Part shown: positions 3,855-63,058 of the stretch, piece by piece
Numbering within the stretch: position 1 is the stretch's first letter
How the letters are laid out: every line of letters starts with the position of its first letter
Origin: Candidatus Woesearchaeota archaeon
Lineage (GTDB): Archaea; Nanobdellota; Nanobdellia; Woesearchaeales; UBA10216
Length of the DNA stretch: 64,000 nucleotides
Reading direction: 5' to 3'
Assembly: GCA_016185705.1 (NCBI GenBank)
Contig: JACPMZ010000007.1
Span: 1-64,000, forward strand
Notes under the pieces: model-generated
Database searches by the model: none
Told to the model about the DNA's origin: nothing
Seen by the model: the letters and a program-made list of their open reading frames with translations, nothing else
Translations under genes and position numbers: made by a program

Positions 3855-3910
3855 TTGCGCTGCTTTTTCCCCTCCCCTGAAAATTAAGGGGAGGGAAAAA
3901 AGCAGCGCAA
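3855..3910. repeat. Intergenic hairpin of the CTCCC/GGGAG family
   Basis: ttgcgctgctttttcccctcccct..aggggagggaaaaaagcagcgcaa, 24-nt arms with one mismatch. Confidence 0.8.
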
Positions 3911-4882: not shown

Positions 4883-6682
4883 GTGAAAATGCCTGTAAAA
4901 CCCAAAAGAGTTACAACTGCTGCAGACGATCTGTATGAGATTGTAAGGCAGAAAAAGGAAATCGCCTTCAAAGATGCAGCACGCATCCTTAAAGTTCCTG
5001 TGCCAACAATAGAGGCATGGTCAACATTTCTTGAGGAGGACGGGCTGCTGTCAATCAAATACAAGTTCACAACGCCATACGTGACTCTTCCCTCCCCAAA
5101 AAAGCAGGCGAAGCAGGCAGACAGAATAAGGCCGCTCTTCCAGGAAAAGCTGGAAGAAGTTGAAATCAGAAGCGAAATGGAGAACGCCGAGGCGCTTCTC
5201 AAAAAATCAAGCCAGAAGCGGGCTCAGGGAGAATTTGGACTTCTGGAGCGCAACAGCAACGAACTTTTCGACAAAATGAGCAAGGTAGTGGAGTTCATAA
5301 GCTCCAGGGCTGACATAGCTCCACAGATTAAAGCCAGACTGGCAGACCAGCTGAAGGAGGTAAGCTCAAAAACCGCAGAGGCATCCAAGCTTGTCAGCGC
5401 CAGCAAATTTGACGAAGCCAGCACCGCATTCTCGCATGTGCAGGAAAGACTCCAGCAGCTGCTGGAAGAATCAAAGAAGCACTACGAAGACATTCAGCAG
5501 GAAAAAGGCGTGGATGAAAAGAGCATGGGCAAGCTGCTTGAATCAACATACGCACTCCTGGAAGAAGGCAAACTGGAGGAAGCGCAAGCCAACTACAGCA
5601 AAATAAAAAAGCTTTTCGCTATCTTCTCGCAGAAATTCGTTTCTGAAAAAAGCCAGATGCAGGGCAGCATTCTGAAACTGAACAGGGACCTTGCAGTTCA
5701 GTCAACAAAAATAAAGGAACAGAGAATCGCAGCAGGAAGCCAGGATATTGGCAGGATGCTCAGAATTACGAACAAAAAAATAAGCCAAAAAAGGTTCGCA
5801 GAAGCGGCAGCATACTACAACCAGATAAAAAACATCTACGCCGGGCTGCCTGACGGATTCATCCGGGAAAAGCACGCCCTCAAAGAGCAGATACTAAAGG
5901 TCTTTTCCAAGCTGGCAAATGAGAGGGAGCGCCGCCTCGCTGAAAAATTCAGCTCGCGCTCCAGGCAAATCTCCAAGCTCCTTGGGGAAGGGAACAAATA
6001 CGTCTTTGAAAACAGCATACCGCTGGCTGTGCAGACCTACAAGAGCGTGAGCGGACTGTTCTCAGAGCTGCCCCGCGGATTCCTGAGGCAGAAATCAGAA
6101 CTGCATGAACGCATAATCCTTTTCCATCAGGCCCTTGAACAGAAACTTGAAGCGTCAAAAGAGGAAGACATGCGCACCAAAAGCCAACAAATCCTAAGCA
6201 TGCTTAAAGAAATGCAGCAGCTCACAAACCAGGGCAGCTACGGACAAGCAGAGCAAACCTATTACAGAATCAACAGCGTATTCAGAAGCCTGCCCGCAGG
6301 GTTCCTGCACGGAAAAACCAAACTGCAGCAGGAAATCATCGCAAATTACGAAGCGCTGATGGCCAGCCAGGACAAAAAAACCTCAACAAGCTTCAGCTCG
6401 GACATAACTGAATTAGCTGCCATGGTTCAACGCGCCGATGAAAACGTCAAAGCAGGAAACTACGAGCAGGCAAATGCCCTTTACCAAAAAATAAAGGCCG
6501 CATACGTGAAGCTCAGGCCAGTGGATATGCGCCAGCGCGACGCAATCAGAAACAGGATACTGCTTCTGTACAAGCACATCCTGCAGTCAAAAGAGCCGGA
6601 CGTCCACCAGATGATAGAAGGGCTCAGAACAAAATCCAGGGCAAGGGTAAGAATGCCAGCACAGGTGCTAGGAAGTGGATGA
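4883..6682 (+). CDS. Winged-helix-like N-terminal domain plus helical TPR-like repeat protein, first gene of a type IV pilus-like locus
   Basis: 599 aa; N-term 'LYEIVRQKKEIAFKDAARILKVPVPTIEAWSTFLEEDGLL' wHTH-like; about five repeats of 'LLEEGKLEEAQANYSKIKKLF..LP.GFI.EK..L...I'; overlaps the downstream ATPase gene by 8 bp. Confidence 0.7.
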   Translation: MKMPVKPKRVTTAADDLYEIVRQKKEIAFKDAARILKVPVPTIEAWSTFLEEDGLLSIKYKFTTPYVTLPSPKKQAKQADRIRPLFQEKLEEVEIRSEMENAEALLKKSSQKRAQGEFGLLERNSNELFDKMSKVVEFISSRADIAPQIKARLADQLKEVSSKTAEASKLVSASKFDEASTAFSHVQERLQQLLEESKKHYEDIQQEKGVDEKSMGKLLESTYALLEEGKLEEAQANYSKIKKLFAIFSQKFVSEKSQMQGSILKLNRDLAVQSTKIKEQRIAAGSQDIGRMLRITNKKISQKRFAEAAAYYNQIKNIYAGLPDGFIREKHALKEQILKVFSKLANERERRLAEKFSSRSRQISKLLGEGNKYVFENSIPLAVQTYKSVSGLFSELPRGFLRQKSELHERIILFHQALEQKLEASKEEDMRTKSQQILSMLKEMQQLTNQGSYGQAEQTYYRINSVFRSLPAGFLHGKTKLQQEIIANYEALMASQDKKTSTSFSSDITELAAMVQRADENVKAGNYEQANALYQKIKAAYVKLRPVDMRQRDAIRNRILLLYKHILQSKEPDVHQMIEGLRTKSRARVRMPAQVLGSG

Positions 6683-8114
6683 ACCAAAAGTACTGGAAAC
6701 ATACAAGCTGAAACTTGGAGAAGTTCTCATAGACGTAAGCATATACACCGAGGAAGATGAGCCGGTTCCCATATACAACGTATCCATACTCAACATCAGC
6801 AAAACCACGCAGCGAATACTCGAAAAGCTGCGCGAAGAATTCATATCAAGGGTCAACCTGGGAGCGCTGCAGGAAACAGAGTCTGCAGACATCATAGAAA
6901 GGTTCAAGCAGGAAATCCGCGTTCTGATAAAAAAATACTTTCCGGGGCTGGATGATGACACCACAGAGCTTCTCGTAAACCACGTCATCCAGCAAAACGT
7001 CGGCCTCGGCCCGCTGGAAATACTCCTCAAGGATGCAAACCTTGAGGAAATAGTGGTAAACGATTCCAAGGAGCCGGTCTGGGTTTACCATCGCGCATAC
7101 GGCTGGCTGAAAACCAACGTATTCATAAAAAGCGAAGCAAGAATCAGGCACTACTCCACAACCATAGGAAGAGAGGTGGGCAAAGAAATAACGCTCCTCA
7201 AGCCGCTGATGGACGCCCACCTGACAACAGGCGACAGGGTTAACGCAACGCTGCAACCCATATCAACAAAAGGCAACACAATAACCATAAGAAAATTCGC
7301 AGAAAAACCGTGGAGCATTACAGACTTAATCAAGAAGAAAACAATGAACTACGAGGTTGCAGCCGTTATCTGGCAGGCGCTCCAGAATGAGCTGTCCATG
7401 ATTATCTCAGGCGGAACCGGCTCAGGGAAAACATCAACGCTGAACGCCATCGCCAACTTCTTCCCCCCAAACCAGCGCATCATATCCATAGAGGATACCA
7501 GGGAACTGACGCTGCCAAACACCCTCCACTGGGTGCCGATGGAGACCCGGCTCCCGAACCCTGAAGGCAAGGGCGAGATAACTATGCTCGACCTTGTGGT
7601 AAACAGCCTCAGAATGCGCCCTGACCGCATAATCATGGGCGAAGTAAGGAGGCAGCGGGAGGCAGAGGTGCTGTTCGAGGCAATGCACACAGGCCACAGC
7701 GTCTATGCAACGCTTCACGCCAACAACGCAGTGGAAACCATTGTCAGACTGACGACACCGCCGATTAACATGCCAAAAGCAGTGCTGAGTTCACTATCCC
7801 TGCTGCTGGTGCAAAACAGAAACCGGCGCACAGGAAAAAGGAGAACGCTGCAGGTAGCAGAAATCACGCCGGACGGAGACGCAGAAGTAGTGATACAGCT
7901 GGATGTTTTAAAGGATTCGCTCATAAGAACGAGCGAAGCCAAACGCACCCTTGACACGCTGTACCTGTACACCGGCCTCAGGCCGGCAGAAATTGAGAAA
8001 GACATAAAATCAAAAATGGCTGCGCTAAAATGGCTTGTTCACCAGGACATAACCGATGTCCACGAAATAGGGCTGATAATGTCAAAATACTATGCCGGAA
8101 CACTGCACGTCTGA
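6675..8114 (+). CDS. Type II/IV secretion system ATPase (FlaI/TadA/VirB11-like)
   Basis: Walker A 'IISGGTGSGKTSTLNAIANFFPPNQRIISIEDTRELTLP', 'RMRPDRIIMGEVRRQREAEVLFEAMHTGHSVYATLHAN'. Confidence 0.95.
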   Translation: MDEPKVLETYKLKLGEVLIDVSIYTEEDEPVPIYNVSILNISKTTQRILEKLREEFISRVNLGALQETESADIIERFKQEIRVLIKKYFPGLDDDTTELLVNHVIQQNVGLGPLEILLKDANLEEIVVNDSKEPVWVYHRAYGWLKTNVFIKSEARIRHYSTTIGREVGKEITLLKPLMDAHLTTGDRVNATLQPISTKGNTITIRKFAEKPWSITDLIKKKTMNYEVAAVIWQALQNELSMIISGGTGSGKTSTLNAIANFFPPNQRIISIEDTRELTLPNTLHWVPMETRLPNPEGKGEITMLDLVVNSLRMRPDRIIMGEVRRQREAEVLFEAMHTGHSVYATLHANNAVETIVRLTTPPINMPKAVLSSLSLLLVQNRNRRTGKRRTLQVAEITPDGDAEVVIQLDVLKDSLIRTSEAKRTLDTLYLYTGLRPAEIEKDIKSKMAALKWLVHQDITDVHEIGLIMSKYYAGTLHV

Positions 8115-8117
8115 GAG

Positions 8118-8948
8118 GTGGTGCCAATAATAGACTTCGCAAATATAATAATAAGGATAGCGCCGTCAGTAAAGACAAACCTGCGCATAGCACACAACAG
8201 AACACCCCCAACAAAGTTTGTGCAGAAATCCATGAAGCTGGCGCTGTACACATCAGTAACAGTGTCAGCAGTAATCTTCTTCCTGCTGGCAAGAACAGTA
8301 TCCATAGTAAAACTCATACCCATCATGCTTCTGGTGGCAGCAACGAGCTATGCGCTTATGTTCATCTTCATCCTGCAGTCGCCAAAGGCAGAAATCAGAA
8401 AAAGGCAGAGGGAAATAGACAGGGAGGTTCTCTTTGCAGGCAGATACCTCCTCATAAAGCTTGAGTCAGGCACACCGCTCGTTAACACAATTGAAGACGC
8501 ATCAAAGGGCTTTGGAATAAGCGCCAAGTACTTCAAGGAAATAATTGACGACATAGACACAGGCATGCCGCTGGAGAAGGCGCTGGAGGACGCACGCAGC
8601 TTCAACGCATCCAAAAAATTCAAGAGAATACTGTGGCAGCTTGTCACAGTGCTCAAAACCGGCTCAGAAGTGACAGACGTTCTCCGGGCAACGCTCAGAA
8701 GCATAGCAACAGAGCAAATCCTTGAAATCAAAAGGTACTCTAAAAAGCTTAACTCGCTGATGCTCTTCTACATGGTCCTGGGAAGCGTTGTGCCGTCATT
8801 AGGGCTGACTATGCTCATAATAATGTCCGGCTTCCTGAACCTTCAGCTGGAAAACACGCTGCTGTTCAGCCTGCTGTTCCTGCTGACAGTAATCCAGCTG
8901 GCTTTCCTCATCATGGTCAGGGCAGCACGCCCGCTGGTGGACATATGA
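8118..8948 (+). CDS. Type II secretion system F/TadC-like membrane protein (first copy)
   Basis: 276 aa, GTG start; 'AGRYLLIKLESGTPLVNTIEDASKGFG...GMPLEKALEDA' T2SSF pattern; multiple TM segments. Confidence 0.85.
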   Translation: MVPIIDFANIIIRIAPSVKTNLRIAHNRTPPTKFVQKSMKLALYTSVTVSAVIFFLLARTVSIVKLIPIMLLVAATSYALMFIFILQSPKAEIRKRQREIDREVLFAGRYLLIKLESGTPLVNTIEDASKGFGISAKYFKEIIDDIDTGMPLEKALEDARSFNASKKFKRILWQLVTVLKTGSEVTDVLRATLRSIATEQILEIKRYSKKLNSLMLFYMVLGSVVPSLGLTMLIIMSGFLNLQLENTLLFSLLFLLTVIQLAFLIMVRAARPLVDI

Positions 8949-9973
8949 TAAACATAAACAAACTGACCGAAGGCGTGGGAAAGGCATTTGTCTTCGATAA
9001 AATACGGCCGCATCTCAGAAGCTACCTTCTCAAAGCAGCAATTACAGAAGTCCCTTACACAGCATTCGGCTGGCTGTTCTGGGCGAGCATACTGCCTGTA
9101 GCCCTGCTGTTCATATTCTACGGCTGGGGATTCATACTCTCGCTGGAGCAGAACATCATCATAGAATTCCTCCTGGCCCTGGCACTCTGGACAGCAGTTC
9201 ACCTGACAGCAGTCGCAGCAATAATACTGGCAGTATACTTTTACCTGGACCTGAAAATATTCAACCGCACCCAAAAAATGGAGGAAGTGCTTCCTGACTT
9301 CCTCCGCATGGTGTCCGAAAACCTGAAGGGAGGCATGCCTTTTGAAAAAGCGCTGTGGAGCTCAATGAAGCCGGAATTCGGAATACTCAGCAACGAAATC
9401 CTCCTTTCTGCAAAGAAAGTGATGACCGGCCAGGACGTGGAAGAAGCGCTGCAGGCATTCACTGAAAAATACAACTCGCCCACACTGCGCAGGTCATTCG
9501 ACCTCATAACAGAAGGGATTAAAGGGGGCGGACGGACAGTTGACGTAATAGACAGGGTTGTGGAAAACATAGAGGAAACCCACGAACTCAAGGCAGAAAT
9601 GGCAGCCACAAACCTCAGCTACGTAATATTTGTGTCCATAATCGTGCTGTTCGTAACTCCGGGACTGTTCACGCTCTCATTCCAGTTCCTCACAGTGCTT
9701 GAAGGCATTTCCGAAAGAATAGACAGCTCAACAAGCCAAAGCACGCTGCCCATAAACATAGGAAAAGTGTCCATAGAGCCGGAAGTCTTCAAAGCATTCA
9801 GCATAAACGCCCTCCTCATAATATCATTCTTCGCAGCCATAATGATAAGCATAATACTGAATGGAAGCATAAAAGCGGGCATAAAATACATTCCGATAAT
9901 GATGATAGCCAGCCACCTCATTTTCAGACTGCTCATGATTGTGGCTTCAAATGTATTCTCAGGAATTATATGA
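8945..9973 (+). CDS. Type II secretion system F/TadC/FlaJ-like membrane protein (second copy)
   Basis: ATGA overlap with upstream gene; 'VLPDFLRMVSENLKGGMPFEKALWSSMKPEFGILSNEI'; C-terminal TM helices. Confidence 0.85.
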   Translation: MININKLTEGVGKAFVFDKIRPHLRSYLLKAAITEVPYTAFGWLFWASILPVALLFIFYGWGFILSLEQNIIIEFLLALALWTAVHLTAVAAIILAVYFYLDLKIFNRTQKMEEVLPDFLRMVSENLKGGMPFEKALWSSMKPEFGILSNEILLSAKKVMTGQDVEEALQAFTEKYNSPTLRRSFDLITEGIKGGGRTVDVIDRVVENIEETHELKAEMAATNLSYVIFVSIIVLFVTPGLFTLSFQFLTVLEGISERIDSSTSQSTLPINIGKVSIEPEVFKAFSINALLIISFFAAIMISIILNGSIKAGIKYIPIMMIASHLIFRLLMIVASNVFSGII

Positions 9974-10712: not shown

Positions 10713-10788
10713 GGTGAAGTTAAGCGCCAAAACCGTGCGCAGAATGCAGGCAAGCTCAGGATTGCAGGACACACAACTTGACATTACC
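10713..10788. mobile_element. Internally deleted copy of family-2 palindromic element
   Basis: 'gaagttaagcgccaaaaccgtgcgc' resembles the left end of the 34.95-kb element; 'ggcaagctcaggattgcaggacacacaacttgacattaccg' is identical to its right end; central hairpin missing. Confidence 0.6.
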
Positions 10789-10833
10789 GCCCAACAGCAA
10801 AAAATATAAACACTCTTTTTCCCTCAGCGCAGA

Positions 10834-12662: not shown

Positions 12663-12715
12663 AAGCTTCCTTTTTCCCTCCCTTCGCAAAGGCGAGGGAG
12701 GGAAAAAGGAAGCTT
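12663..12715. repeat. Intergenic hairpin of the CTCCC/GGGAG family
   Basis: 21-bp perfect arms aagcttcctttttccctccct / agggagggaaaaaggaagctt. Confidence 0.85.
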
Positions 12716-13453: not shown

Positions 13454-13503
13454 CGCTGCTTTTTTTCCTCCCTCTGAATCTCAGGGAAGGAAAAAAAGCA
13501 GCG
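13454..13503. repeat. Intergenic hairpin of the CTCCC/GGGAG family
   Basis: cgctgctttttttcctccct..agggaaggaaaaaaagcagcg. Confidence 0.8.
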
Positions 13504-13612
13504 TCGCAGAACCAGAAAATGAATGCAGTCTGGCCGGAAAAAAGCAGATGGCGGGATGCCTGCACCGCCAATAGAGAAAGTAATATAAAGCATAAAACCG
13601 CTGAAAGCGCTG

Positions 13613-15802
13613 GTGTTGAAGTTGCACAATAAAGCGCAGGCAGCGATGGAATTCCTGCTCAATTACGGCTGGGCAATAATGGTGGTTGTGATAGTGATTT
13701 CTGCTTCGGCTTATTTCGGCTTTTTGAGCCCGAGCAATTTTGCTCCTGAAAGGTGCGCTGTAACGCTTCCGTTCAATTGCGATGGCGGCACAGCAGGGGA
13801 AGACGTGGCAGGAATAGCGCTTGAAAACGTTGGAGGCAGGGATTTGACAGTTAAGAGCGTGACATTTACTTCCGAGGCGCTGCTGGGAGAATGCACTGCC
13901 AATGTGAACATTCAGATAAAAAACGGGGAGGAGCAGACAATATATGCAGATGACCCTGTTGGATGCAGCCATGTTGGGGGGAAGGGCAAGAACAAGTACG
14001 CAGTTAAAATAACTTATTTTTATGCCGGCTCAGGCATTGACCAGCAGATGGTTGGGGAAATGGTTGCCAAGTTTGGCGGGGCAGTCAGCGGAGGCGTTGG
14101 CGGCGGCGTGACAGGCGCAGTTGCTCACTGGGCTTTTGACGATCTGGACAAAGGAACTCAGGTTATTGACTATTCTGGAAATGGGAATGACGGAACATTT
14201 GTGGGGGCTGTTTATGGCGGGACAGTGCAGGGAGCTGCCGCAGTTCCCGGCAAATACGGGGATGCTCTGTCGTTTGATGGCGCTGATGATTATGCAAGCA
14301 CAGCTGATGCGAATTCTCTGGACATGGGAACAGGCGACTTCACCGTAGAGGCGTGGGTGAATAAAGACAGCGACGGATATAACGTGATTGCAAACAAAAG
14401 AAAGCATAATTATGCCAAAAGAAGCGAGGCTTTTGATGACGCTGTTGTGTGGATTAATTACTGCAATCTAGGCACGATGACTGCAAACGATCCGGCAGTG
14501 GCAGCTCCAGACGGAACTTTCACGGCAGAAAAGCTGGTTGCGGGCGGTGCGAACTGTGCTGGTACAACAGGCCGCATACAAACTATCAGCCTGACAGCCG
14601 GCCAGACCTATACTGTAAGCATATGGGCTAGAAGGCTAAGCGGAGGAACAGACTTTAAGCTTGGATTTAATGATGGCAACACTTGCGGTTTAACTCTTAC
14701 TGACAGCTGGACGCGATATACGTGCACAAAAACCATTTCAGGTGATACAAGCAGGGGCATGCAGTGGTATACTGGAGGGGGAAACACAGTATATGTATGG
14801 GGCGCGCAGTTTGAGCGCTCGCCAAAAGCCACGGTGTATGCAAAAACAGACGGCACAGCATTTACAGATTCCGGCTATTCCCTGTGGCTGGAGGATTCCA
14901 GAGTTAAAGCTGCAGCCAGCAGCACGGCAAATACAAAAGCTGTAACAGTTGAATACGATGGCGTGGGCGCAGGATGGCACCATGTTGCAGTTGTTTTTAA
15001 CAGAGGCAGCAACTTGCAGCTGTATCTTGATGGCGCAGAAGCAGCAGCAGCTTCTTTGGCAGACGTGTCCGGCCAGGATATCAGCAATGCCAACAGCCTG
15101 ACCATAGGCGGCACAGGCACGGAAATAATAAACGCATTTGACGGGCTGGCAGACGAAGTCAGGATTTACAAAAAAGCGCTGACACCAGCAGAAATAACCG
15201 AATCAATGAACTCGCGCTACCCGGTGAAAGGCGCAGCAGCTTCATATTCATTTGAGAATCCTTCAAGCAGAGGCAGCGACACGCACTTCATTGTTCAGGG
15301 GCAGAAAGGCGGTGCGCTGCATCTTGATGGCGTCAGCGAGTCTGTGCTGTGCGGCAACCCGCTCACCACGGAACTTCAGTTTTCAGTTTCCGCATGGTTT
15401 AACACAGACGACGCTGCAGCAGCAGAAGACCATATAGTTGACCTGGGCGATGACGGTTTCAATCCCAGGAATTTCCTTGTCTGGAGAGGCAGCCTTGTAA
15501 ACTGGTTTGCAGCTGATGCGGAAAACGACCTGCTTAGCGTGCCTGGCACCGCCGGCAATGCCCCCCTTGGTCTATGGAACCATGCAGTTATAACAAGAAA
15601 CGGTGATACGGCCAATCTTTATGTTAACGGAAATCCTGACAGCAGCAATACGAATGCCGCAGCCGGCAATGTTATAGGCACTTCGCAATGCGAGATCGGG
15701 TCAAATGCCGATGATGACAGGTGGTTTGACGGCCTAATAGACGATGTAGTAATCTACGACCGCGCACTGACAGATGCGGAAGCGCAGGCGCTTGGCAGCT
15801 GA
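13613..15802 (+). CDS. Class III signal-peptide pilin-like protein with LamG (concanavalin-like) domains, copy A
   Basis: 'HNKAQAAMEFLLNYGWAIMVVVIVISASAYFG' class III leader; 'AHWAFDDL...GDALSFDGADDYA...FTVEAWVN', 'WHHVAVVFNRGSNLQLYLDG', 'DEVRIYKKALTPAEI' LamG signatures; start (GTG 13613 or nearby TTG) uncertain. Confidence 0.85.
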   Translation: MLKLHNKAQAAMEFLLNYGWAIMVVVIVISASAYFGFLSPSNFAPERCAVTLPFNCDGGTAGEDVAGIALENVGGRDLTVKSVTFTSEALLGECTANVNIQIKNGEEQTIYADDPVGCSHVGGKGKNKYAVKITYFYAGSGIDQQMVGEMVAKFGGAVSGGVGGGVTGAVAHWAFDDLDKGTQVIDYSGNGNDGTFVGAVYGGTVQGAAAVPGKYGDALSFDGADDYASTADANSLDMGTGDFTVEAWVNKDSDGYNVIANKRKHNYAKRSEAFDDAVVWINYCNLGTMTANDPAVAAPDGTFTAEKLVAGGANCAGTTGRIQTISLTAGQTYTVSIWARRLSGGTDFKLGFNDGNTCGLTLTDSWTRYTCTKTISGDTSRGMQWYTGGGNTVYVWGAQFERSPKATVYAKTDGTAFTDSGYSLWLEDSRVKAAASSTANTKAVTVEYDGVGAGWHHVAVVFNRGSNLQLYLDGAEAAAASLADVSGQDISNANSLTIGGTGTEIINAFDGLADEVRIYKKALTPAEITESMNSRYPVKGAAASYSFENPSSRGSDTHFIVQGQKGGALHLDGVSESVLCGNPLTTELQFSVSAWFNTDDAAAAEDHIVDLGDDGFNPRNFLVWRGSLVNWFAADAENDLLSVPGTAGNAPLGLWNHAVITRNGDTANLYVNGNPDSSNTNAAAGNVIGTSQCEIGSNADDDRWFDGLIDDVVIYDRALTDAEAQALGS

Positions 15803-15821
15803 AATTACTACCGTACCGCCA

Positions 15822-15969
15822 CGGCGTCCCTATTGAAAAGCTGCATTCACCCAACCTTGTTGTCAGTCCAGTTTCCCAACTTTCACTCTCCCTTATCCTG
15901 ATAGGGAGGGTGAAAGTTGGGAAAGGCGATGCGCAAAGGAGAAAATAAGCGGACATTTCAATGGCGCCG
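15822..15969. mobile_element. MITE-like palindromic element, family 1 (E2), at 3' end of copy A
   Basis: ggcgtccctattgaaaag ... catttcaatggcgcc ends; hairpin tttcccaactttcactctccct..agggagggtgaaagttgggaaa. Confidence 0.65.
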
Positions 15970-19190: not shown

Positions 19191-19240
19191 AAAGAAAACA
19201 ATATATAGTAGTGAATTAAGAAAACAGCTTGGTAATGATA

Positions 19241-19744
19241 ATGTCCCGCAAAGCCCAGGCAGCAATGGAATTCTTAATGACATACGGCTGGGCTATAATG
19301 GTTGTTCTGATTGTCATCGGTGCGCTGGCATATTTTGGAGTATTGAATCCGAGTTCATTGGTTCCTGAGAGGTGCTCATTAACCATACCATTTGACTGCC
19401 GGGCAGCGTCAGCTACTGATGCCGGATTCGGCGCAGCAGATGATATAATAGCGCTGTCAGTCTACAATGTCGGGACAAGGGATTTGACAGTAACACAGGC
19501 AACTTTCTCATCAGACCTTCTAAGCGCAGACTGCGTACACATTCCAGCAACGCCATACAACATCAATTCCGGCTCCACTGATCAGGAAACAATTGCCTCG
19601 GTAGCTACTGACAACTGCGAGTTCAATAACAACGCCATCGGAAGGAAAGCCAAGATTGCGGTTGAAATACTATACAATTACAACGATGCTCCAGGCATAA
19701 TAAACGCCATGAACGGCGAAATCGTAGCAGCCGTGCAGGGTTAA
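19241..19744 (+). CDS. Class III signal-peptide type IV pilin-like protein
   Basis: 'MSRKAQAAMEFLMTYGWAIMVVLIVIGALAYFGVLNPSSLVPERCSLTIPFDC'; start trimmed from TTG 19229. Confidence 0.9.
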   Translation: MSRKAQAAMEFLMTYGWAIMVVLIVIGALAYFGVLNPSSLVPERCSLTIPFDCRAASATDAGFGAADDIIALSVYNVGTRDLTVTQATFSSDLLSADCVHIPATPYNINSGSTDQETIASVATDNCEFNNNAIGRKAKIAVEILYNYNDAPGIINAMNGEIVAAVQG

Positions 19745-19873: not shown

Positions 19874-20371
19874 ATGTTCAAGAAAGCTCAGGCAGCAATG
19901 GAATTCTTAATGACGTATGGATGGGCCATACTCGTAGTTCTGGTTGTTATCGGTGCGCTTGCATACTTCGGCGTATTGAACCCAAGCTCATTAGTGCCTG
20001 AAAGATGCGCATTGACGCTGCCATTTGACTGCAGAGGGGCCAATGCGGTGATTGATGCTGCTGGTGATGATGCGATCACCTTAGCAGTCAACAATGTAGG
20101 AACAAGGGACATTACAGTATACGATGTTACGTTTTCATCAACAGCTTTGACAGCTGACTGCACATATTATGGTCCGGTTGGTGTGGCAGCAAATACTGTT
20201 ACGCCTGTTAGTTTGAACACAATCGGTAATCTATCATCAAACTGTGAATTCGCAGCAAATACAGCCGGAGACAAAACCAAACTGTCCGCATCAATACGTT
20301 ATGTCTACGATGATGCAGCTACAATAACCAACCAAATGGTTGGCGAAGTAGTAACCACAGTACAGGGCTAA
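19874..20371 (+). CDS. Class III signal-peptide type IV pilin-like protein (paralogue of the preceding gene)
   Basis: 'MFKKAQAAMEFLMTYGWAILVVLVVIGALAYFGVLNPSSLVPERCALTLPFDCRGA'. Confidence 0.92.
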   Translation: MFKKAQAAMEFLMTYGWAILVVLVVIGALAYFGVLNPSSLVPERCALTLPFDCRGANAVIDAAGDDAITLAVNNVGTRDITVYDVTFSSTALTADCTYYGPVGVAANTVTPVSLNTIGNLSSNCEFAANTAGDKTKLSASIRYVYDDAATITNQMVGEVVTTVQG

Positions 20372-20412: not shown

Positions 20413-20615
20413 TTTCTAACTTATTTTAAACCGCTGTTAAGTTTTTCGGGTCTTTGTTTTATCAGTAGTTTCCGCAGCAGCAGTGGTTGCTTTTACGACA
20501 AAAAACAAGGCGCTTTTGCTGCTACTGCACTTTACCGTATAACGCTAAAGTTCCGCAGATTCAGCAAAGCCTTAAACCAACACCTTTAAATATGCCTCTT
20601 GCCCGTTACTCTTTT

Positions 20616-23600
20616 ATGAAATCCGGGCAGGCATCCACCGAGTATGCGCTGATTGTTCTGGTGGGGCTTGCTTTGATTTTGCCTGCGGTGTTTGTTTTTT
20701 ACCAGAATGCCGGAGAGTCTTCTGAGAAGATAGACCAGGCGCAGATAGAGGCATTTGGCACCAAACTGGTTCAGAACGCTGAGCGCGTCTACGCTTTAGG
20801 GCCGCCTACAAGGATAAAGTTTGAGGAGAAGCTGCCACCGCACGTGAGCGGCATAAGCGTTTCTGAGCAGGATGGGCTGTACGTTCTTAAAATCACAACA
20901 GACACAGGGACTGTCACGAACGAATTTGCCTTTCCAACAGAAGTGCCTCTCGCAGGGGACATCCTGCCTTCGCAGCTCAGCCCCGGGCTGAAGAAAATAA
21001 CCCTTGCTGCTGCGCCTGTAATCGCAGGAAAATCCTTGGTAACTATGAATTTGAAGGAAGATGCTGCCTGCTCTGACGGGACAGCGCAGAACCAGTGCTC
21101 TACAGCCACAAATCCGGGAGCAGGGAAACAAATCGGGCTCTGCTTCAACAACGTGCTCATAGAAAACTGCCTGCAGTGCGGCTGCCAGGAAATAATAACT
21201 GGAACGCCAATACTGTGCAAGTCAGACAACACATGCAGAATCCCGAAAATAAGCTCAGTAATTCCGTTCACCGGCTCAAAAGATACAATAGTAACAATCA
21301 CAGGCACTGACTTTCTTCCTGGAGCTGCCGTAAAATTCGGCAGCGCATCAGCTGCGGTAACAAGCATTGAGGAAAATGAAATTACAGTCGTAGTTCCTGA
21401 GAAGCCATCAGGCAGCAGCATAGTGGACGTTACCGTAACAAACCCTGACGGCGGCTTCGGCACGATGGCAGCAGGATTTACATATGTGCTCAGCCCCCAC
21501 ATAACAAGCATATACCTGACCTCTGACCCCTTAGCTGCGCTGGAAGGGCCGGCAACAGGAGGAACGTCCATCACAATAACAGGTCTCCGCTTTGACCCAG
21601 CCATAACAGTAAAAGTGGGCGACAACTTTGCAACCAATGTTGTGGTTGGCTTTTTCGGGGAAGGGCAATCATCATTAACAGCAACAACGCCGGCAGGGCC
21701 TGAAGGGCAAGCTGTTATAAAATTAACAAACCCTGACGGCGGCACCACAAGCTCATCAGACTACCCAACCCGGGTATTCACAACCCAAAGCAGCTACAAC
21801 GGAAACCTTATCGCAGCAGCCCAGCTCATTGACCCCGGCTTTACCGGAACAGGCCTGGAAGCAGCAGACCTGCTGTGCAGGAACGAGGCGGGCTCAGGAA
21901 AATGGACAGCATGGCTCTCAAGCAGCAGCACCGCAGCCAAGAACAGAATAGCCGACGACAAATACATGCTGGCTTCCGGCACACTAATCGCCAGCAACAA
22001 GGCGCAGCTGCTAAATGCTGAAAGCGTCCCATTAAAATCGCCGATAATAGAAGACCGCAACGGCGAGCAATTTGTTACAGCAAGGCAGGTGTGGACAGGA
22101 ACATACCCAAACGGCTTACCAACCAAATATCATTGCAACAACTGGCAGTCAGGAACCGGCAGCTACGCCGCATTCTACGGCAACAACTTCCAGTCAAATG
22201 CAAAATGGACATATAATTTTGATCCTGCAGCAGACTCATATCCAGACAGCTGCGACAAGCTTAAGCACCTGTACTGCATTGAAAATCGTGAGGAATTTAC
22301 ATACGCAGTAATACCCTCCATAACCCAGACCATACCTGCAACAGCGCTTGAACTGGGCGGGCAGAGCATAACAATCAGGGGCAGCAGCTTTGCTGATACG
22401 CCTGCGGTAACATTCGGAGGAACGCCGGCAGCCGCAACATTTGTTGACAGCACTGAGATAACAGCAGTCGTGCCGGCAGGAACAGGGACAGTAGACCTTA
22501 CAGTAACGAATCCAAACGGCAAATCAGCCACCGCAGCATTCACATACAACAAGCACCGCATATTCGTAACATCGCAGGCATTCAGCGGAGACTTAATAAC
22601 AGAAGCAGCAGCCTTCGGATACTCAGGAACAAATCCGCTGGCAGCTGCTGACAAAATATGCCAGGGACTGGCAGACAATGCACAGCTCAGCAGCAGATGG
22701 GCAGCGTGGCTGTCAGACAGCGAAGCAGATGCCAAAGACCGCGTTCTCGACGTAGAGTACACGCAGCTTCCGGGAGCGCCTGTCGCAGCAAGCAAAGCAG
22801 CGCTGCTGAACACCATAGCAGTGTCGCTGGAAAATCCGATAAACATAGACGAGACAGGAAATCCAACGACAGACTTTGTGTGGACAGGAACATTCCACAC
22901 CGGCAGCGCAGACACAACCGTATGCGGCGACTGGGCTTCACTGGCGCTTACAGGCACAACAGGATACAGCTTCAACGAAAACCCTGCATGGACTGATGCA
23001 GCAGACGCAGCATGCTCAGCAGACAAGCGCATCTACTGCGCTGAAAGAAGCCAAAGCATAAGCACGCCAACCATAACTGCTGTCAACCCTGCAAACGTCC
23101 AGCAGAGCGGCGGTGAAGAAATCACAATAACAGGCACAGGATTTGTCAACGAGCCAACTGTAAAGATTGGCGGCGTGCAGCTTGATCCGGCTGCGGTAAC
23201 ATTTGTCAGCAGCACGAAGCTTACTGCTATAACGCCGCCGCACGCAGGCGGACAGGTTGATGTAGTGGCAAGGAATCCTGACTCAGGATATGCAAAGCTT
23301 GCTGAAGGACTTAACTACATAATACTGCCTGCAATCAGCAGCATAAGCCCGGGCGGCGGCTACCTGTACGAGGCAACGCCTGTAACCATAACAGGCACAG
23401 GATTCAGCAGCCCGACGGTAAAGTTCAGGCACCCCAACGGAGTAACCGCATCAGGAACGGTAAATGACTACAGCAGCACCCAGATACACGCAACAACGCC
23501 GAGGTGGATAGACGAAACCAAATCAAAGCAAATACAGCAGGCAACATTCCAGGCGGACGTAATAATAACCAACGCTGACACCGGCCAGGCAATCCTGGAA

Positions 23601-23669
23601 AACGGATTCACGTTCCAATACGACAAGCAGGTGTGCGAACAGGTCTTTGGCGTCGGCAGCTGCCCGTAA
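20616..23669 (+). CDS. Class III signal-peptide surface adhesin with IPT/TIG and two DUF1554-like domains
   Basis: Start trimmed to MKSGQASTEYALIVLVGLALILPAVFVFY; repeated 'I..I.P..G...GG..ITITG..F' IPT/TIG; two 'FVTSQ.F.GDL...CQ..A...WAAWLSDS...DRV...VWTGT...C..W...YC.E' modules. Confidence 0.85.
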   Translation: MKSGQASTEYALIVLVGLALILPAVFVFYQNAGESSEKIDQAQIEAFGTKLVQNAERVYALGPPTRIKFEEKLPPHVSGISVSEQDGLYVLKITTDTGTVTNEFAFPTEVPLAGDILPSQLSPGLKKITLAAAPVIAGKSLVTMNLKEDAACSDGTAQNQCSTATNPGAGKQIGLCFNNVLIENCLQCGCQEIITGTPILCKSDNTCRIPKISSVIPFTGSKDTIVTITGTDFLPGAAVKFGSASAAVTSIEENEITVVVPEKPSGSSIVDVTVTNPDGGFGTMAAGFTYVLSPHITSIYLTSDPLAALEGPATGGTSITITGLRFDPAITVKVGDNFATNVVVGFFGEGQSSLTATTPAGPEGQAVIKLTNPDGGTTSSSDYPTRVFTTQSSYNGNLIAAAQLIDPGFTGTGLEAADLLCRNEAGSGKWTAWLSSSSTAAKNRIADDKYMLASGTLIASNKAQLLNAESVPLKSPIIEDRNGEQFVTARQVWTGTYPNGLPTKYHCNNWQSGTGSYAAFYGNNFQSNAKWTYNFDPAADSYPDSCDKLKHLYCIENREEFTYAVIPSITQTIPATALELGGQSITIRGSSFADTPAVTFGGTPAAATFVDSTEITAVVPAGTGTVDLTVTNPNGKSATAAFTYNKHRIFVTSQAFSGDLITEAAAFGYSGTNPLAAADKICQGLADNAQLSSRWAAWLSDSEADAKDRVLDVEYTQLPGAPVAASKAALLNTIAVSLENPINIDETGNPTTDFVWTGTFHTGSADTTVCGDWASLALTGTTGYSFNENPAWTDAADAACSADKRIYCAERSQSISTPTITAVNPANVQQSGGEEITITGTGFVNEPTVKIGGVQLDPAAVTFVSSTKLTAITPPHAGGQVDVVARNPDSGYAKLAEGLNYIILPAISSISPGGGYLYEATPVTITGTGFSSPTVKFRHPNGVTASGTVNDYSSTQIHATTPRWIDETKSKQIQQATFQADVIITNADTGQAILENGFTFQYDKQVCEQVFGVGSCP

Positions 23670-23746
23670 GCATTGCCTGCTTTTTATTGCATCCAACTGC
23701 ATTCCATCTGCTGCGCTCTGCTTTCTTCCCTAACGTAATTACTTTG

Positions 23747-23793
23747 CACTGCTTTTTCCCTCCCCCTTAAGTTTAAGGGGAAAAAAAGCAGCG
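23747..23793. repeat. Intergenic hairpin of the CTCCC/GGGAG family
   Basis: gcactgctttttccctcccccttaa..ttaaggggaaaaaaagcagc; flanks share 'attactttgc(a/g)ctgctttttccc' with the 3855-3910 copy. Confidence 0.75.
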
Positions 23794-23893: not shown

Positions 23894-26800
23894 ATGCCAA
23901 AAAGAGGGCAGGCAGCGATGGAGTATTTCATTATCACGGCAGTTCTGACTGCAATAATAATTCCGACAACCGTGCTCTTCTACAACTATGCGAGCGAAAT
24001 ATCGGAAGGAATTGACAAATCCAAGATAGAAAAATTCGGGAATGACATAATTAACGCGGCAGAAACAGTATATTATCTTGGGCCGCCGTCAAGGATAGTG
24101 CTGCAGCTGGAGCTGCCTGACAGGGTGCAGTCAATCACCGTGGAAGAAGACAGCGGCGTGCACATTCTGAAAATATCAGCAGCCGGCTCATCCGGCATCT
24201 CGGATTTCACATTCCCCACAGATGTAACCATCCAGGGCAACTTTGAGGGTTACCTGAGCAAAGGAACCAAGAGAGCAAGGGTAGAGGCAGTCTCTCTGGC
24301 AGGAGGAAGAAAGCTTGTAACCGTAAACATGGCCAGCTCACAGCAATGCATTGACGACACGCCGCATGACAGCTGCTCAACAGCTCCGAATTACTGCTTC
24401 AACGGCATCCTTATAGAGCACTGCATCCAGTGCGGATGCCCCGGCGGCCTGACATGCAAGCCGGACAGCACCTGCCTCATACCGGAAATTGACACAATAA
24501 CGCCGGCAATCGGCACACGGCTGGGCGGAACAGAAGTGAGCATAACAGGCGAAGACTTCCTGGCAGGAATAGCTGTTAAGTTTGGAACGCAGGAAGCAGC
24601 AGCATCTCTCAGCGGCAACACCATAACTGCAACAGCGCCGCCGTCAGTTGGCGGCGCATTAGGAGCGGTTGACATAACCGTCACCAACACAGACGGCGGC
24701 TCAGGCACAGCAGCAGGTGGGTATACGTATGTAACCGCTCCGAGAATTGACGATGTTGAGATTACAGGAGACCCTGCTGCTCCTGTTGAAGGCACAAGCG
24801 CAGGCGGCACATCAATAACAATAACCGGCGAGGATTTCATGGCTGGAGCGCAGGTAAAGGTAGGGGGAAATCCGGCAGCAGGCGTAACAGTCAGCGGCAA
24901 CACCATCACAGCAACCACGCCGCAAGGGCCTGCCGGGCTTCAGGACATAGAAGTAATAAACCCTGACGGCGGCTCATCAATGGAAGCCGCAGCAGCCGTG
25001 TTCATAACTTCACAGCAATATTCAGGCGATTTGGTGACAGCTGCCAAAGCAATAGACCCGCAGTTTGCCGGAAACGGCCTGGCAGCAGGCAGCTTAATCT
25101 GCCAGAATGAAGCAGGTGCAGAAAACATAGGCGGCAGGTGGGCAGCGTGGCTGTCAGACAGCTTTGTTAGCGCAAAGGACAGAATCAGCAGCAGGCCATA
25201 CCACAAAATGGACGCTGCTACAACCAAAGTAGCTGACAATCTCAACGACCTTACTGACGGCGCAATCAGCAGCGAAATAGATTATCATGCCAACGGCGAA
25301 ATCGCGCTTGGAACAATAAATGCATTCACAGCAACAGAAGGCAGCGGAACCGCAAATTCAAACAACTGCAACGACTGGATAGACAGCACAGCATCCTATT
25401 CAGGAGTGTACGGCATTCTTTCAACAACAGAATCCTGGACAAACAGCGCAGCAGGAACATGCGATACTGCAAGACGGCTTTACTGCTTCCAGAACTCAAG
25501 GGCAGCGTTCAGGTATATTGGGACAACGCCGACAGTAACAGGAATAAACCCGAACATAGGCCCAAGCAACGGCGGAACTTCTGTAACGATAACAGGAACT
25601 GAGTTCCTGGCAAGCCCTGCTCCGCAGGTAATGATAGGAACAGGACAGGCAACCAACGTGGTTGTTCAGGATGCCAATACGCTGCAGGCAGTCACAGGCG
25701 CTGCAACACCAGGGCTTGTTGACGTAGCAGTAACCAACGGCGACGGCGGCTCAGCGACGCTCATTGACGGATTTACGTACACTTATCCGCCGAGCGTAAC
25801 CACTGTGATTCCAGACAACGGGCAGGCAAGCGGCGGCACTGACATATCAATAACCGGAGACAACTTTGTAACAGGAGCAACCGTAAAAATAGGGCAGCTT
25901 GGAGAGTCATGGAGCGAATCAGTAACAATACCTGAGCTTGCCAAGCGCTCATTCCCCGGCATAGCAGTTTACAACGCAAAACTGTGGATACTCGGCGGGC
26001 ACATAGGATACTTTGCCAGCGACGTATGGAGCTCAACCGACGGGAAAACGTGGCAGAAGGAAACTGCAGCAGCCCAATGGCAGGGCAGGGATTTTCCTGC
26101 AGCTGTGGTTCACAACAACAAAATATGGGTTATGGGCGGAAGGACCAATAACCTGCTGCTGAATGACGTGTGGAGCAGCGCTGACGGCATAACGTGGCAG
26201 CAGGAAACTGCAACAGCGCAATGGAAGAAAAGGTATGGGCATGCAGCCGTAACATTTGGCGGAAAGATGTGGGTTATGGGCGGAATAGACCAGAACAGCC
26301 AGCGGCTGAACGACGTGTGGAGCAGCGCTGACGGCATAACATGGAAGCAGGAAACTGCAGCAGCGCAATGGAAGGGAAGGCATGCGCCTGCAGCAGCATT
26401 TGCCGGAAAGATGTGGATACTCGGCGGACAGGACAACAACGGCAATTCATTAAAGGATGTTTACAGCAGCTCTGACGGCATTGCGTGGACAAAAGAAAAA
26501 GATGCTGCGTGGGCTGCGCGGTTCGCGCACACTGCTGCTGTATTTGACAGCAAATTATGGGTTACAGCAGGATTCAGCACCGATGGCTGGGAAAGCGATG
26601 TGTGGTACAGCGAAGACGGCACAAACTGGGCGGAAGCAGCGAATACTGCAGCGTGGCCCAAGCGCATTGGGCACGCATCAGCAGCTTTTGACAACAAGCT
26701 CTGGGTTATAAACGGCTTCGCCTTCCCCAAGTTAAGGGATGTGTGGTATACAACTTACGGCGTTGCAGCAACCGATGCGGCTGTAACAAGCCCGAATGCA

Positions 26801-29800
26801 ATAGGCGCAACAACCGCTGCAGGGCATCAGGGCAGCATGCCTGTTTTGGTGACAAATCCTGACGGGCAGACAGGCAAATTAAGCAACGGCTTTACGTACA
26901 ATCCGGGGCCAACCATAGTTAAAATATCCCCAAGCAGCGGCTTTGAAACAGTGGCAACGCCTGTAACCATAACCGGACGCAACTTTGCTGACCCGGTAAC
27001 AATAAAATTCGGCGGAATCAATGCAGCAGACATAGTATTTCAGGACAGCACCACAGTCTACGCAACTGCGCCGCCCGGAACCGGAACAGTGGCTGTTGAA
27101 GCGACAAATCCTGACGGGCAAAAAGGGGTGAGCAGCTTCACTTACTACACGCCCAGAGTATTTGTCACGTCAGACACCTTTACAGGCGACTTAATCAGCG
27201 AAGTGCTGGCAGAGTATCAGCTCTTCCAGGGAGACGGACTGGGAGCAGGCGACTACATGTGCAGAAAAGCAGCGATAAACGCAGGATTAGGCGGAACAGG
27301 CATTTGGGCAGCGTGGCTTAGCAACGATATTGTTGATGCAAAGAACAGGGTGGTTGACATAAAATACAATAGGGTGGATGGAGCGCCTGTTGCAGCCAGC
27401 AAGGCAGCGCTGCTGAATACAGAGTCTGTGCCGCTGCAAAACCCCATACTCCTGACAGAAGACTCAGCTGGAGCAGGCACTCCTGTGTGGACAGGAACAG
27501 ACCCGAAAGGAATTGCAAAGCCAGCGCTGTGCAGCAGCTGGAGCACAACATCAGCCACCGGCGCATACGGGCTCAGCTGGGTGGAAACCATGGAGTGGAC
27601 TGACATAGGCACCGAACCATGCAATTCCCAATTATCAATATACTGCTTTGAGCGAAACACCCACATAAGCACGCCAAGAATAACTTCAATAACGCTGCCT
27701 GAAGGCATAAAGGAAGGCGGGGTTGAAGTAACAATCAGCGGCAGCGGCTTCTCCACTGCACCTGCCGTGCATTTTGGAACAGCAGAAGCAACCAACGTAG
27801 CGGCAGTGGACAGCAGCACAATAACTGCTGTAACTCCTGCAAGCCCAATCGGAGCAGGAACGCTGGATGTAAAGGTAACAAACCCTGACGGCGGTGTTAA
27901 TGTGCTGCCGAACGGCTACACTTACTACACTGCGCGCGCCTTCATAACACAAACCCAGCTTTCAGCAGACATGGTAGCAGCTGCAGGCCTGCTGCCGAAT
28001 CCATACACCGGAAACAACGGGCTGGCAGCAGCAGATGCTGTCTGCCAGAACCTCGCAGACATAGCAGGGCTGGGAGGAAGATGGGCAGCGTGGCTCTCTG
28101 ACAGCAATGTGGATGCAAAGGAGCGCGTTGAAGATTTGGAATATGCAAAGATTAACGGAGTTATAGTTGCCAACAGCAAAAACGATTTGCTCACAGCAGA
28201 CCCCCAGAACCTGGACAGCCCAATAGACTTCACTGAAAGCGGCGCAACACAGGCAAACTCGTGGGTTTGGACTGCCACAAAGCAGGACGGCTTAAAAAGC
28301 GGGAATTACTGCGGCGACTGGACTGACGGAGCCAGCGCAAATCCAGTGGTGTTCGGCTCGTCATTTACGGATTACAGGTGGACAGAGCACACGTCAGGGC
28401 CGCCTCACTGCACCTCAGTCCTGCACCTCTACTGCTTTGAGCGCAGGAAAAGCATTGGAACGCCGGAGATAACAGACATCAGCCCCCCATCCGGGGCTGA
28501 GGCAGGCGGCACTGCCATAACAATAACAGGAACCGGCTTTGACAGCGCTGCGCAGGTAATTATCGGAGGCGCGCCTGCTTCAAATGTTGCGGTTGCGGAC
28601 AGCACTACAATCACTGCAGCCACGCCCGCAGGCACTGGAACAGCATCAGCAGTAGTCAAAAACCCTGACAGCGGCTACGCAGCGTTTCCATTCACATTCA
28701 ACCCCCTGCCTGTAATAACAGCCATTACCCCAAACGAGGGCTATAGTGTAGGCGGAATGGACATAACAATCACCGGAAGCAAATTTGTCGCCACACCAAG
28801 GGTCTTAATAGGAAATTCAGACGCCACAAACATCGTGCTTGTGGACAGCAGCACCATCACAGCAAATGCGCCTGCAGGCGAAGGCATTGCAGACGTCGCT
28901 GTCATCAATCCTGACGGAGGCACCGGAGTCCTGCCAGCCGGCTACGGCTACTATGCCACAGTTGGCAGGGCGTTTGCACACTCAAAGACAGGAACAGGAG
29001 CGCTTAATGGGCTGTACGGCGCAGACCAGAAATGCAAAGCAGCAGCAGCAAGCGCAGGGCTTGGAGGAGACTGGGCAGCTTGGCTTTCAGACATTAACCA
29101 GGACGCAAAAGACAGGGTGCATGACAGGGTGTATGTGAAGACTGATTTTAATCTGCTTGCAAATAACAAGGATGGCCTCACTAGCCCTTCCGGACTCATT
29201 TGGACGAGCTTCAATGTGGACGAAATGGTCTCTTATACTGTGCCGCCATACGTATGGACAGGGACGTCGTGGTCAGGCACTGCGCTGCCAGACACATGCA
29301 ACAGCTGGACATCAAGCAGCGGCCTCGGCCGCAGCGGCAGCACACGCGACTCATCAGCGCAGTGGACTGATGACCACACTGCTGACTGCAGCAATGCATA
29401 TTCCCTGTACTGCTTTGAACGCGACATACAAATAAAGTACAAGCCAACCGTGACAGCAATAAGCCCTAATCAGGGGTATGTCGGCGGTGGAGGCAGCATA
29501 ACAATAAAGGGCGCAAACTTTGTAGGCACGCCTGCAGTAACATTCGGCGGCTCGCCTGCTGCGGTCACCCAGTACAGCACAGCAAGCATAACTGTAACAG
29601 TGCCCGCAGGAACAGGAACAGTGGACTTAGCAGTAACCAACGGCGACGGAAACACGCATACCATTGCAGGCGGCTACACATACATAGAAGGCCCAGCCAT
29701 AACCCAGGTAATACCCTCATCAGGGCCCCAGAGCGGCGGAACCCTGATAACAATAAACGGCAACAACTTTGCAGAAGGCGCGACAGTAAAAATCGGCAGC

Positions 29801-34940: not shown

Positions 34941-35101
34941 GAGCAGGAGGGTAATTTCAAGTTAAGTGGCAAAACCGTCGCATCCTTCCCTGATTTTTTT
35001 CTCCCCCCCTTAAACAATAAGGGGGGAGAAAAAAATCAGCCAAGCAGGCATCGGCAAGCTCAGGATTGCAGGACACACAACTTGACATTACCGAGCAGGA
35101 G
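34941..35101. mobile_element. Family-2 MITE-like element with perfect 9-bp target-site duplication
   Basis: Flanks gagcaggag (34941-34949) and gagcaggag (35093-35101); TIR ggtaatttcaagtt / aacttgacattacc; central palindrome ctgatttttttctcccccc..ggggggagaaaaaaatcag. Confidence 0.85.
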
Positions 35102-49894: not shown

Positions 49895-49946
49895 GCGCTT
49901 CATTTCCACCTCCCTTAAATTTCGAAGGGAGGTGGAAATGAAGCGC
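49895..49946. repeat. Intergenic hairpin, core of a palindromic element
   Basis: 22-bp perfect arms gcgcttcatttccacctccctt / aagggaggtggaaatgaagcgc. Confidence 0.85.
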
Positions 49947-49960
49947 GAAGGAAAGAACAG

Positions 49961-50018
49961 AGCAGGGAAAAAAATCAGGGAAGGATGCGACGGTTTTGCC
50001 ACTTAACCTGATATTACC
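49961..50018 (-). repeat. Family-2 element terminus
   Basis: gggaaaaaaatcagggaaggatgcgacggttttgccacttaacctgatattacc = reverse complement of the left end of the 34.95-kb element with few mismatches. Confidence 0.75.
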
Positions 50019-50061
50019 CTGTGCTGCAAAACTTTAAATAACCAGTTTCCACAAATGAGCC

Positions 50062-55637: not shown

Positions 55638-55692
55638 CCTCTTTCGCCCCTTCTACTGTTGATAGCGGTATTTAAAAAAGTATCGCTGAGGC

Positions 55693-55838
55693 GGCGCCAT
55701 TGAAATGTCCGCTTATTTTCTCCTTTGCGCATCGCCTTTCCCAACTTTCACTCTCCCTTATCCTGATAGGGAGAGTGAAAGTCGGGAAACCGGACTGACA
55801 ACAAGGTTGGGTGAATGCAGCTTTTCAATAGGGCCGCC
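55693..55838. mobile_element. MITE-like palindromic element, family 1 (E3), at 3' end of copy B
   Basis: ggcgccattgaaatgtccgc ... gctgcattcacc-equivalent end gcagcttttcaatagggcc; central hairpin with loop inverted relative to E2. Confidence 0.65.
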
Positions 55839-55858
55839 GTGGCGGTACGGTAGTAATT

Positions 55859-58159: not shown

Positions 58160-58506
58160 TTTTAGCGGTTTTTTGCTTTATATTACTTTCTGTTATCGTG
58201 CTTATTGTTCAATCCGGGCGGGTACTGTTCGGCGTTTGACAGCAGCGGCAGTGCTGGCAGCGCAGATGCAGCAGCTTAGCGCCGCAGCAGTCGCAGCCGC
58301 TACTGCTGCGTATTATCGTTTGCTTAAAGTATTCAGCAGCAGCCGGAAACTTAACAACACGCAGAAGAGTCCACATTGATAAATCATTTGTTTTGGCATT
58401 AATAGATTGATGAACAGAATAAAGTCATTACACTGTCAGACTATGACCATCACAACAAGAACAAAATATGAAAGTATTTTAAACAGACGCATGCACTTGA
58501 ATTGCT

Positions 58507-61015: not shown

Positions 61016-61157
61016 GGTGCTATTGAAAAGTTGCGCCCGCTCTGCCATTTTCAAGCCCTGCTTCCAAATTTTCACCCTCCCTTAACTTAATAGGGAGGGT
61101 GAAAATCGGGAAGGGCGATGTGCAACGGATAAAATCAGAGGACTTTTCAATGACGCC
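61016..61157. mobile_element. MITE-like palindromic element, family 1 (E4)
   Basis: ggtgctattgaaaagttgc ... acttttcaatgacgcc TIRs; hairpin ttttcaccctccctta..tagggagggtgaaaa. Confidence 0.65.
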
Positions 61158-62955: not shown

Positions 62956-63032
62956 AGGTTAGCGTTTTGTAAACTCACAAAAAAAAATCAGGGTAGGGTG
63001 CGCACGGTTTTGCCACTTAACTTGAAATTACC
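62956..63032 (-). mobile_element. Truncated family-2 palindromic element
   Basis: aaaaaatcagggtagggtgcgcacggttttgccacttaacttgaaattacc = family-2 end; flanking 9-mers tgagctgtt / tgcgctgtt (8/9 match). Confidence 0.55.
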
Positions 63033-63058
63033 TGCGCTGTTGAGGTAGAATGAAAATA

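Follow-up and report, generated by a model that had tools for sequence, protein, structure and literature searches.

The window analyzed here is a stretch of 64,000 nucleotides at the start of contig JACPMZ010000007.1 of a Candidatus Woesearchaeota archaeon. It contains two long genes, A and B, that lie in opposite orientation with about 40 kb between them. Gene A (13613-15802, + strand) encodes 729 aa and gene B (55859-58159, - strand) encodes 766 aa. Both join a pilin to a first LamG domain (LamG1), a linker and a second LamG domain (LamG2). Each LamG1 holds a nested module, which in B is itself a LamG domain. The Laminin_G_3 match of A has E 3.6e-49. The two genes score 167.2 (A) and 145.5 bits (B) against Laminin_G_3 (PF13385, gathering score 27.6). 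The start in B that is equivalent to the GTG of A (13613) is a GTG at 58153.

The two genes share both of their ends. The 5' constant block (13575-14146, + strand in A; 57611-58191, - strand in B) is 95.9% identical over 581 columns by blastn. In A it runs from an archaeal-looking core promoter (AGAAAGTAATATAAAGC) through the GTG start and the pilin domain to codon 178, within the first residues of LamG1. An earlier note on this DNA, made from the letters alone, had pointed to common promoter-proximal sequence and to a protein-identical pilin segment of about 170 aa with about eight synonymous differences. The shared promoter and the identity of the protein, a run of 174 aa, are confirmed, and the differences are indeed synonymous, but there are 11 of them, with 0 non-synonymous. 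The 3' constant block (15730-15969, + strand in A; 55692-55931, - strand in B; 240 bp) is 95.0% identical over 241 columns by blastn and comprises the last codons, the stop codon and 167 bp of 3' sequence with a palindromic element at its end. The identical C-terminus and common 3' element described earlier are thus also present; the last 19 aa are the same in A and B, as are 23/25 of the last 25. We rejected the idea that the 3' likeness is a mere dispersed repeat, because it extends into the coding sequence and reaches 95% identity, as against 77-84% in the longest other copies of the element. No target-site duplications were seen by eye at the borders of the two units. This is a metagenome-assembled draft in 14 contigs with two similar copies, as a chimeric joining of strain variants might require, but such an artefact is highly improbable, since the longest exact match between A and B is 113 bp, which makes collapse of the copies unlikely, the differences are spread through the blocks, and each copy sits in a distinct, conserved neighborhood.

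The palindromic 3' element of A (15822-15969, + strand, about 148 bp) has a predicted RNA fold of -67.2 kcal/mol (z=-6.6). A related copy lies at 61020-61157 (139 bp matched, 77%), and partial copies occur at various other places in the genome. In B the hairpin loop (55737-55789) is inverted relative to its flank and to A. Gene A and the other genomic copies that we inspected have one orientation, so the loop in B is the derived state. A loop inversion of this kind can arise within the palindrome and needs no 40-kb event.

Between the constant blocks the two proteins diverge. The variable region covers about residues 179-704 of A and is broken by a linker of 34 residues that is 71% identical to that of B (YPVKG..FIVQGQKGGAL; 15218-15319, + strand in A; 56345-56458, - strand in B). 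Aligned protein identity is 38% in the N-terminal half of LamG1, 23% in its C-terminal half and 28% in the LamG2 core (15320-15724, + strand in A; 55937-56344, - strand in B). The centers had been described as differing completely over some 350 aa. They do differ, but over a larger region, and not completely, as the linker, the residual LamG identities and the common order LamG1-linker-LamG2 attest. With BLAST at E 0.01 the two LamG2 cores do not find one another, and both find their best matches in LamG domains of other genomes. A tree of LamG2 cores separates A from B (delta lnL 10.2). Sisterhood is nevertheless not rejected by the AU test (p=0.35), so the cores could descend from one gene.

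The nested modules are different in kind. In A, residues ~264-419 (14402-14869, + strand) match the phage/GTA head-spike-fiber family NF048003 of NCBIfam (75.8 bits, cut-off 36) over residues 265-418 and are also CBM_4_9-like, with a match below cut-off. NF048003 is rare in the order, with matches in 19/359 genomes, 6 of them above cut-off. A further match of the insert is to one virion protein of a cyanophage (36%, E 3e-9). In B the module is a LamG domain (residues 306-535; 56555-57244, - strand; Laminin_G_3 3.4e-11), and a search for phage matches to the B LamG1 composite found none. Codon usage is atypical in both modules (z=-2.5 in A, z=-4.6 in B) and native in the pilin and the LamG1 frame (z -0.2 to -0.8). 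Atypical usage is also seen in the resident pilins (z -2.1 and -3.6), and codon usage is therefore suggestive of transfer of the modules, but no proof of it. The LamG/spike-fiber composite is not unique to A, since a giant protein in a genome from another genus of the family (G007), read by eye, appears to have a LamG domain split by a spike-fiber-like module. AlphaFold2 run without an alignment on the LamG1 composites returned pLDDT values of 40.3 and 32.4, too low for a usable model.

Each protein starts with a prepilin signal of class-III type (KA↓QAAMEFL..YGWAI; E at +5), which can be aligned to pilins from other Woesearchaeota. The motif KA↓QAAMEFLLNYGWAIMVVVIVISASAYFG comprises a short N-terminus, cleavage before Q, E at +5 and then a hydrophobic stretch, and has invariant columns across 16 Woesearchaeota pilins. 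No curated Pfam pilin family was reached above cut-off (PF07790 Pilin_N, E 0.0033, 18.7 bits, cut-off 25.2). Genes for pilus assembly are found 3.6 kb upstream of A (6675-9973, + strand). They encode a PilB-type ATPase (T2SSE 4.8e-39) and two T2SSF membrane proteins of PilC/TadC type (1.9e-13 and 6.1e-11). Two resident pilin paralogs follow A at 19229-19744 and 19874-20371 (both + strand), with 48 and 45% aa identity to the A pilin. A contig scan with a single pilin sequence gave no match; in an alignment-based scan the named relatives were mostly Candidatus Woesearchaeota groundwater genomes, which places the window in this group. Woesearchaeota-like pilins also occur on contigs labeled Omnitrophota, Aminicenantes or PVC bacteria (L076, L099, L102, L107), which are perhaps mis-binned. 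Other genomes in the family and order have pilin-LamG fusions as single genes. Among the matches listed in an order-wide pilin search, only this genome has two long fusions with a like N-terminal part. Judging from their domain families, the heads of A and B may act as lectins or binding domains in attachment to host or neighbor cells. The RcGTA head spike fiber binds capsular polysaccharide (PMC10218006), and DPANN SPEARE proteins contain laminin-G domains proposed for host interaction (PMC6642349).

We compared the two loci with a genome of the same genus (G001, two contigs) and with G007. G001 has neither gene at these sites: 124 bp separate hyp204m from ProRS at the A site and 161 bp separate the NTase from hyp344 at the B site, and no gene lies in either gap. 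All else tested in G001 is collinear; it lies on two contigs, each of which stops within a pilin gene. Order and orientation are likewise conserved in G007, where the equivalent gaps contain neither A nor B. The 3' block of A stops shortly before the conserved ProRS promoter, and that of B shortly before the conserved NTase promoter. By parsimony both genes were gained in this lineage; their absence in the relatives could be loss. The hyp204m gene adjoining ProRS is single in the window and a tandem double match in the same-genus genome (L259, 2048-3253, G001:C14). ProRS of G001 has a pilin after it, at the end of a contig. The contigs there break inside pilin genes (L017/L019; start of G001:C14 and end of G001:C8) that have a near-identical stretch of about 90 bp in common, and repetition of pilin 5' ends may fragment assemblies and so conceal genes of this kind.

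The question of how two genes came to have constant ends and variable middles was addressed with codon identity, i.e., use of the same codon, counted solely at residues that are identical in A and B. It is 176/191 (0.92) in the ends (pilin 157/168, C-terminus 19/23), 15/24 (0.62) in the linker and 32/87 (0.37) in the middle, LamG1 plus LamG2 core. The ends differ from the middle at p=6e-22 and from the linker at p=3e-4. Had an old gene simply been duplicated, with exposed domains diverging fast and purifying selection holding the ends, one would find the order LamG1-linker-LamG2 common to both copies, as we do, and pilin N-termini are indeed under assembly constraint. However, synonymous and non-coding positions are near-identical in the ends, and synonymous positions are saturated in the middle. 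Selection on the protein cannot explain this pattern, which refutes duplication in its pure form and leaves that account extremely unlikely. Recombination therefore took part, and the comparison shows, at the level of DNA sequence, that the constant ends and variable middle of A and B were built with it and not by ordinary duplication. The earlier note had proposed recombination between copies with conserved ends and named simple old duplication as what would speak against it; the codon comparison bears out a part for recombination and excludes simple duplication. Conversion of the ends and replacement of the centers leave the same pattern.

The earlier note had gone further and suggested antigenic diversification or cassette exchange, and a possible inversion of the intervening 40 kb. 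The constant-variable-constant layout, the inverted orientation of A and B and the inverted loop in the 3' palindrome of B would all suit programmed antigenic or phase variation, whether by silent cassettes, by an invertase or by flipping of the 40-kb segment. The search for further cassettes elsewhere, suggested at the time, has been run, and no other LamG gene, cassette or pilin-LamG match was found in the 1.23-Mb genome (95.6% complete). A silent reservoir of partial copies, as in a pilE/pilS-type system, is thus not found in this genome. The genome has 0 matches to the reverse transcriptase PF00078, and a diversity-generating retroelement was rejected on that ground. No integrase or recombinase family had a Pfam match among the window ORFs scanned, and a shufflon-type switch would lack a dedicated site-specific recombinase there. 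Matches to the integrase family PF00589 occur only outside the window, at C8:164539, the nearest, about 100 kb beyond it, and on C5 and C3. With respect to the flanks, the genes of the 16-55.7 kb segment are ordered and oriented as they are in G001 and G007, and the segment shows no inversion relative to these two genomes. Both ends of A and B encode the same protein, and a crossover there therefore swaps promoters or inverts the segment, but yields no new variants. New centers must come from outside the A/B pair. Programmed variation at this locus is thus very unlikely.

End-restricted similarity is not confined to A and B. Among pilin pairs of Woesearchaeota and relatives, codon identity was significantly higher over residues 1-48 than over the remainder (p<0.01) in 9/58 within-genome pairs vs 13/2501 between-genome pairs; many of the pairs are tandem pairs of one locus and not all are independent. 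The difference between the N-terminal part and the rest is larger within genomes (Mann-Whitney p=2e-9, with the same non-independence of tandem pairs). An N-part codon identity above 0.8 was found in 8.6% of within-genome pairs and 0% of between-genome pairs. In several pairs, 5' stretches that are 86-97% identical by blastn end within the gene. One tandem pilin pair (L063; JACPIG010000107, 437-1058 region) resembles A and B on a small scale, with a 5' part at 90%, a 3' part at 96.7% and a diverged center. As far as codons and alignments can tell, end-restricted homogenization is recurrent, and A and B are its most extended case among the pairs here. No account of gene conversion among DPANN pilins turned up in the papers searched, though this does not prove that none exists.

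What is directly observed for A and B is the mosaic structure, the empty sites, the collinearity, the module difference and the atypical codon usage of the inserts. We consider it probable that the two genes are lineage-specific pilus-borne lectin adhesins whose shells recombine and whose LamG heads were replaced or diverged. Each unit would consist of a core promoter, a probably leaderless GTG start, a class-III-type pilin, two LamG domains, a nested binding module and the palindromic 3' element, and the pilins would be assembled by the PilB/PilC machinery encoded just upstream of A. Both units would have entered the lineage after its split from the sister species, where both sites are empty, either through inverted duplication of a single ancestral pilin-LamG unit or through two acquisitions of its allelic versions. 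The shells (promoter, pilin, C-terminus and 3' element) would then have been kept near-identical by recombination, most likely gene conversion between the copies; we infer conversion as the homogenizing step. The LamG heads would have been replaced or have diverged, and each gene would have acquired a nested binding module of its own, with horizontal transfer as the probable route. The outcome would be two adhesins of different specificity on one pilus system.

A possible alternative, to which we give less credence, dispenses with conversion between A and B. In it the whole gene was recently duplicated, or a second allele came from a neighboring strain, and a diverged allelic center was imported by homologous recombination anchored in the conserved ends. 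Divergence is similarly low (4-5%) throughout the ends, non-coding 3' DNA included, as a single recent event would give. The atypical codon usage of the inserts and the best matches of the LamG2 cores in other genomes also fit such an import, and the VARTIG proteins of Thermococcales have been explained in this way (PMC8416519). However, the donor allele was not seen in 359 genomes of the order, the divergence of the linker is intermediate, and the recurrent within-genome homogenization of pilin ends elsewhere fits conversion. We therefore favor shells kept by conversion, with import of a diverged center close behind.

Several known systems resemble A and B in part. VARTIG (Makarova et al., 2021, PMC8416519) is the closest in principle: an archaeal surface protein with a conserved part and a hypervariable binding domain, whose variability is attributed to recombination between strains, not within the genome (PMC8416519). 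It differs in having Ig domains (arCOG07710), C-terminal variability and multigene islands, whereas A and B are fusions of a pilin to LamG domains that are constant at either end and form no island. We rejected membership of A and B in VARTIG, because their domains are LamG and not Ig, the relatives found are Woesearchaeota and the organization differs. The pilE/pilS system of Neisseria likewise involves a type IV pilin with a constant N-terminus, a variable C-terminal part and recombination. Unlike it, A and B have no silent cassettes, exist only as two full-length copies, are constant at both ends and vary in whole lectin modules. The PilA adhesion pilins of Haloferax volcanii (PMC4371748) also occur as several in one archaeon and conserve a hydrophobic N-terminal H-domain for assembly, but lack the LamG heads of A and B, in which homogenization extends to synonymous and non-coding DNA. 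SPEARE (PMC6642349) are, like A and B, DPANN surface proteins with laminin-G domains and a proposed role in host attachment, but they are giant and not pilin fusions. The nested module of A matches the NCBIfam family of the RcGTA head spike fiber Rcc01080 (PMC10218006, PMC7296036). Unlike Rcc01080, it sits inside an archaeal LamG domain on a pilin.

Cultivated DPANN archaea need contact with host cells, and the evolution of their specificity is little known. The same pilus anchor with different heads, together with homogenization of pilin 5' ends across Woesearchaeota, would give a testable route by which the assembly part is preserved by recombination while binding heads change. More tentatively, and with considerable doubt, the fixed shell of promoter, pilin, C-terminus and palindrome might serve Woesearchaeota as a cassette format. 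Loci and strains would exchange lectin heads within it, some of which resemble receptor-binding modules of phages, such that the adhesion specificity of the pilus would evolve by head swapping.

The window contains further repeats. Intergenic palindromes of about 50 bp with T-rich/CCTCCC arms, some of them related, occur at 3855-3910, 12663-12715, 13454-13503, 23738-23793, 34990-35039 and 49895-49946. They are separate from the 3' element of A and B and are possibly terminators or a dispersed palindrome family. A dispersed repeat of 52-60 bp is found in three places and two orientations (34948-35001, 49967-50020 and 62981-63039), and an exact 41-bp direct repeat at 10749-10789 and 35053-35093. 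Between A and B lie two genes for very large repeat surface proteins (20487-23669 and 23894-32272), both with TIG domains. The one of 2792 aa also carries Kelch, DUF1554 and CoaZ repeats. The internal repeats of the large surface proteins are up to 86% identical at the nucleotide level (e.g., 28015-28122 vs 30028-30135).
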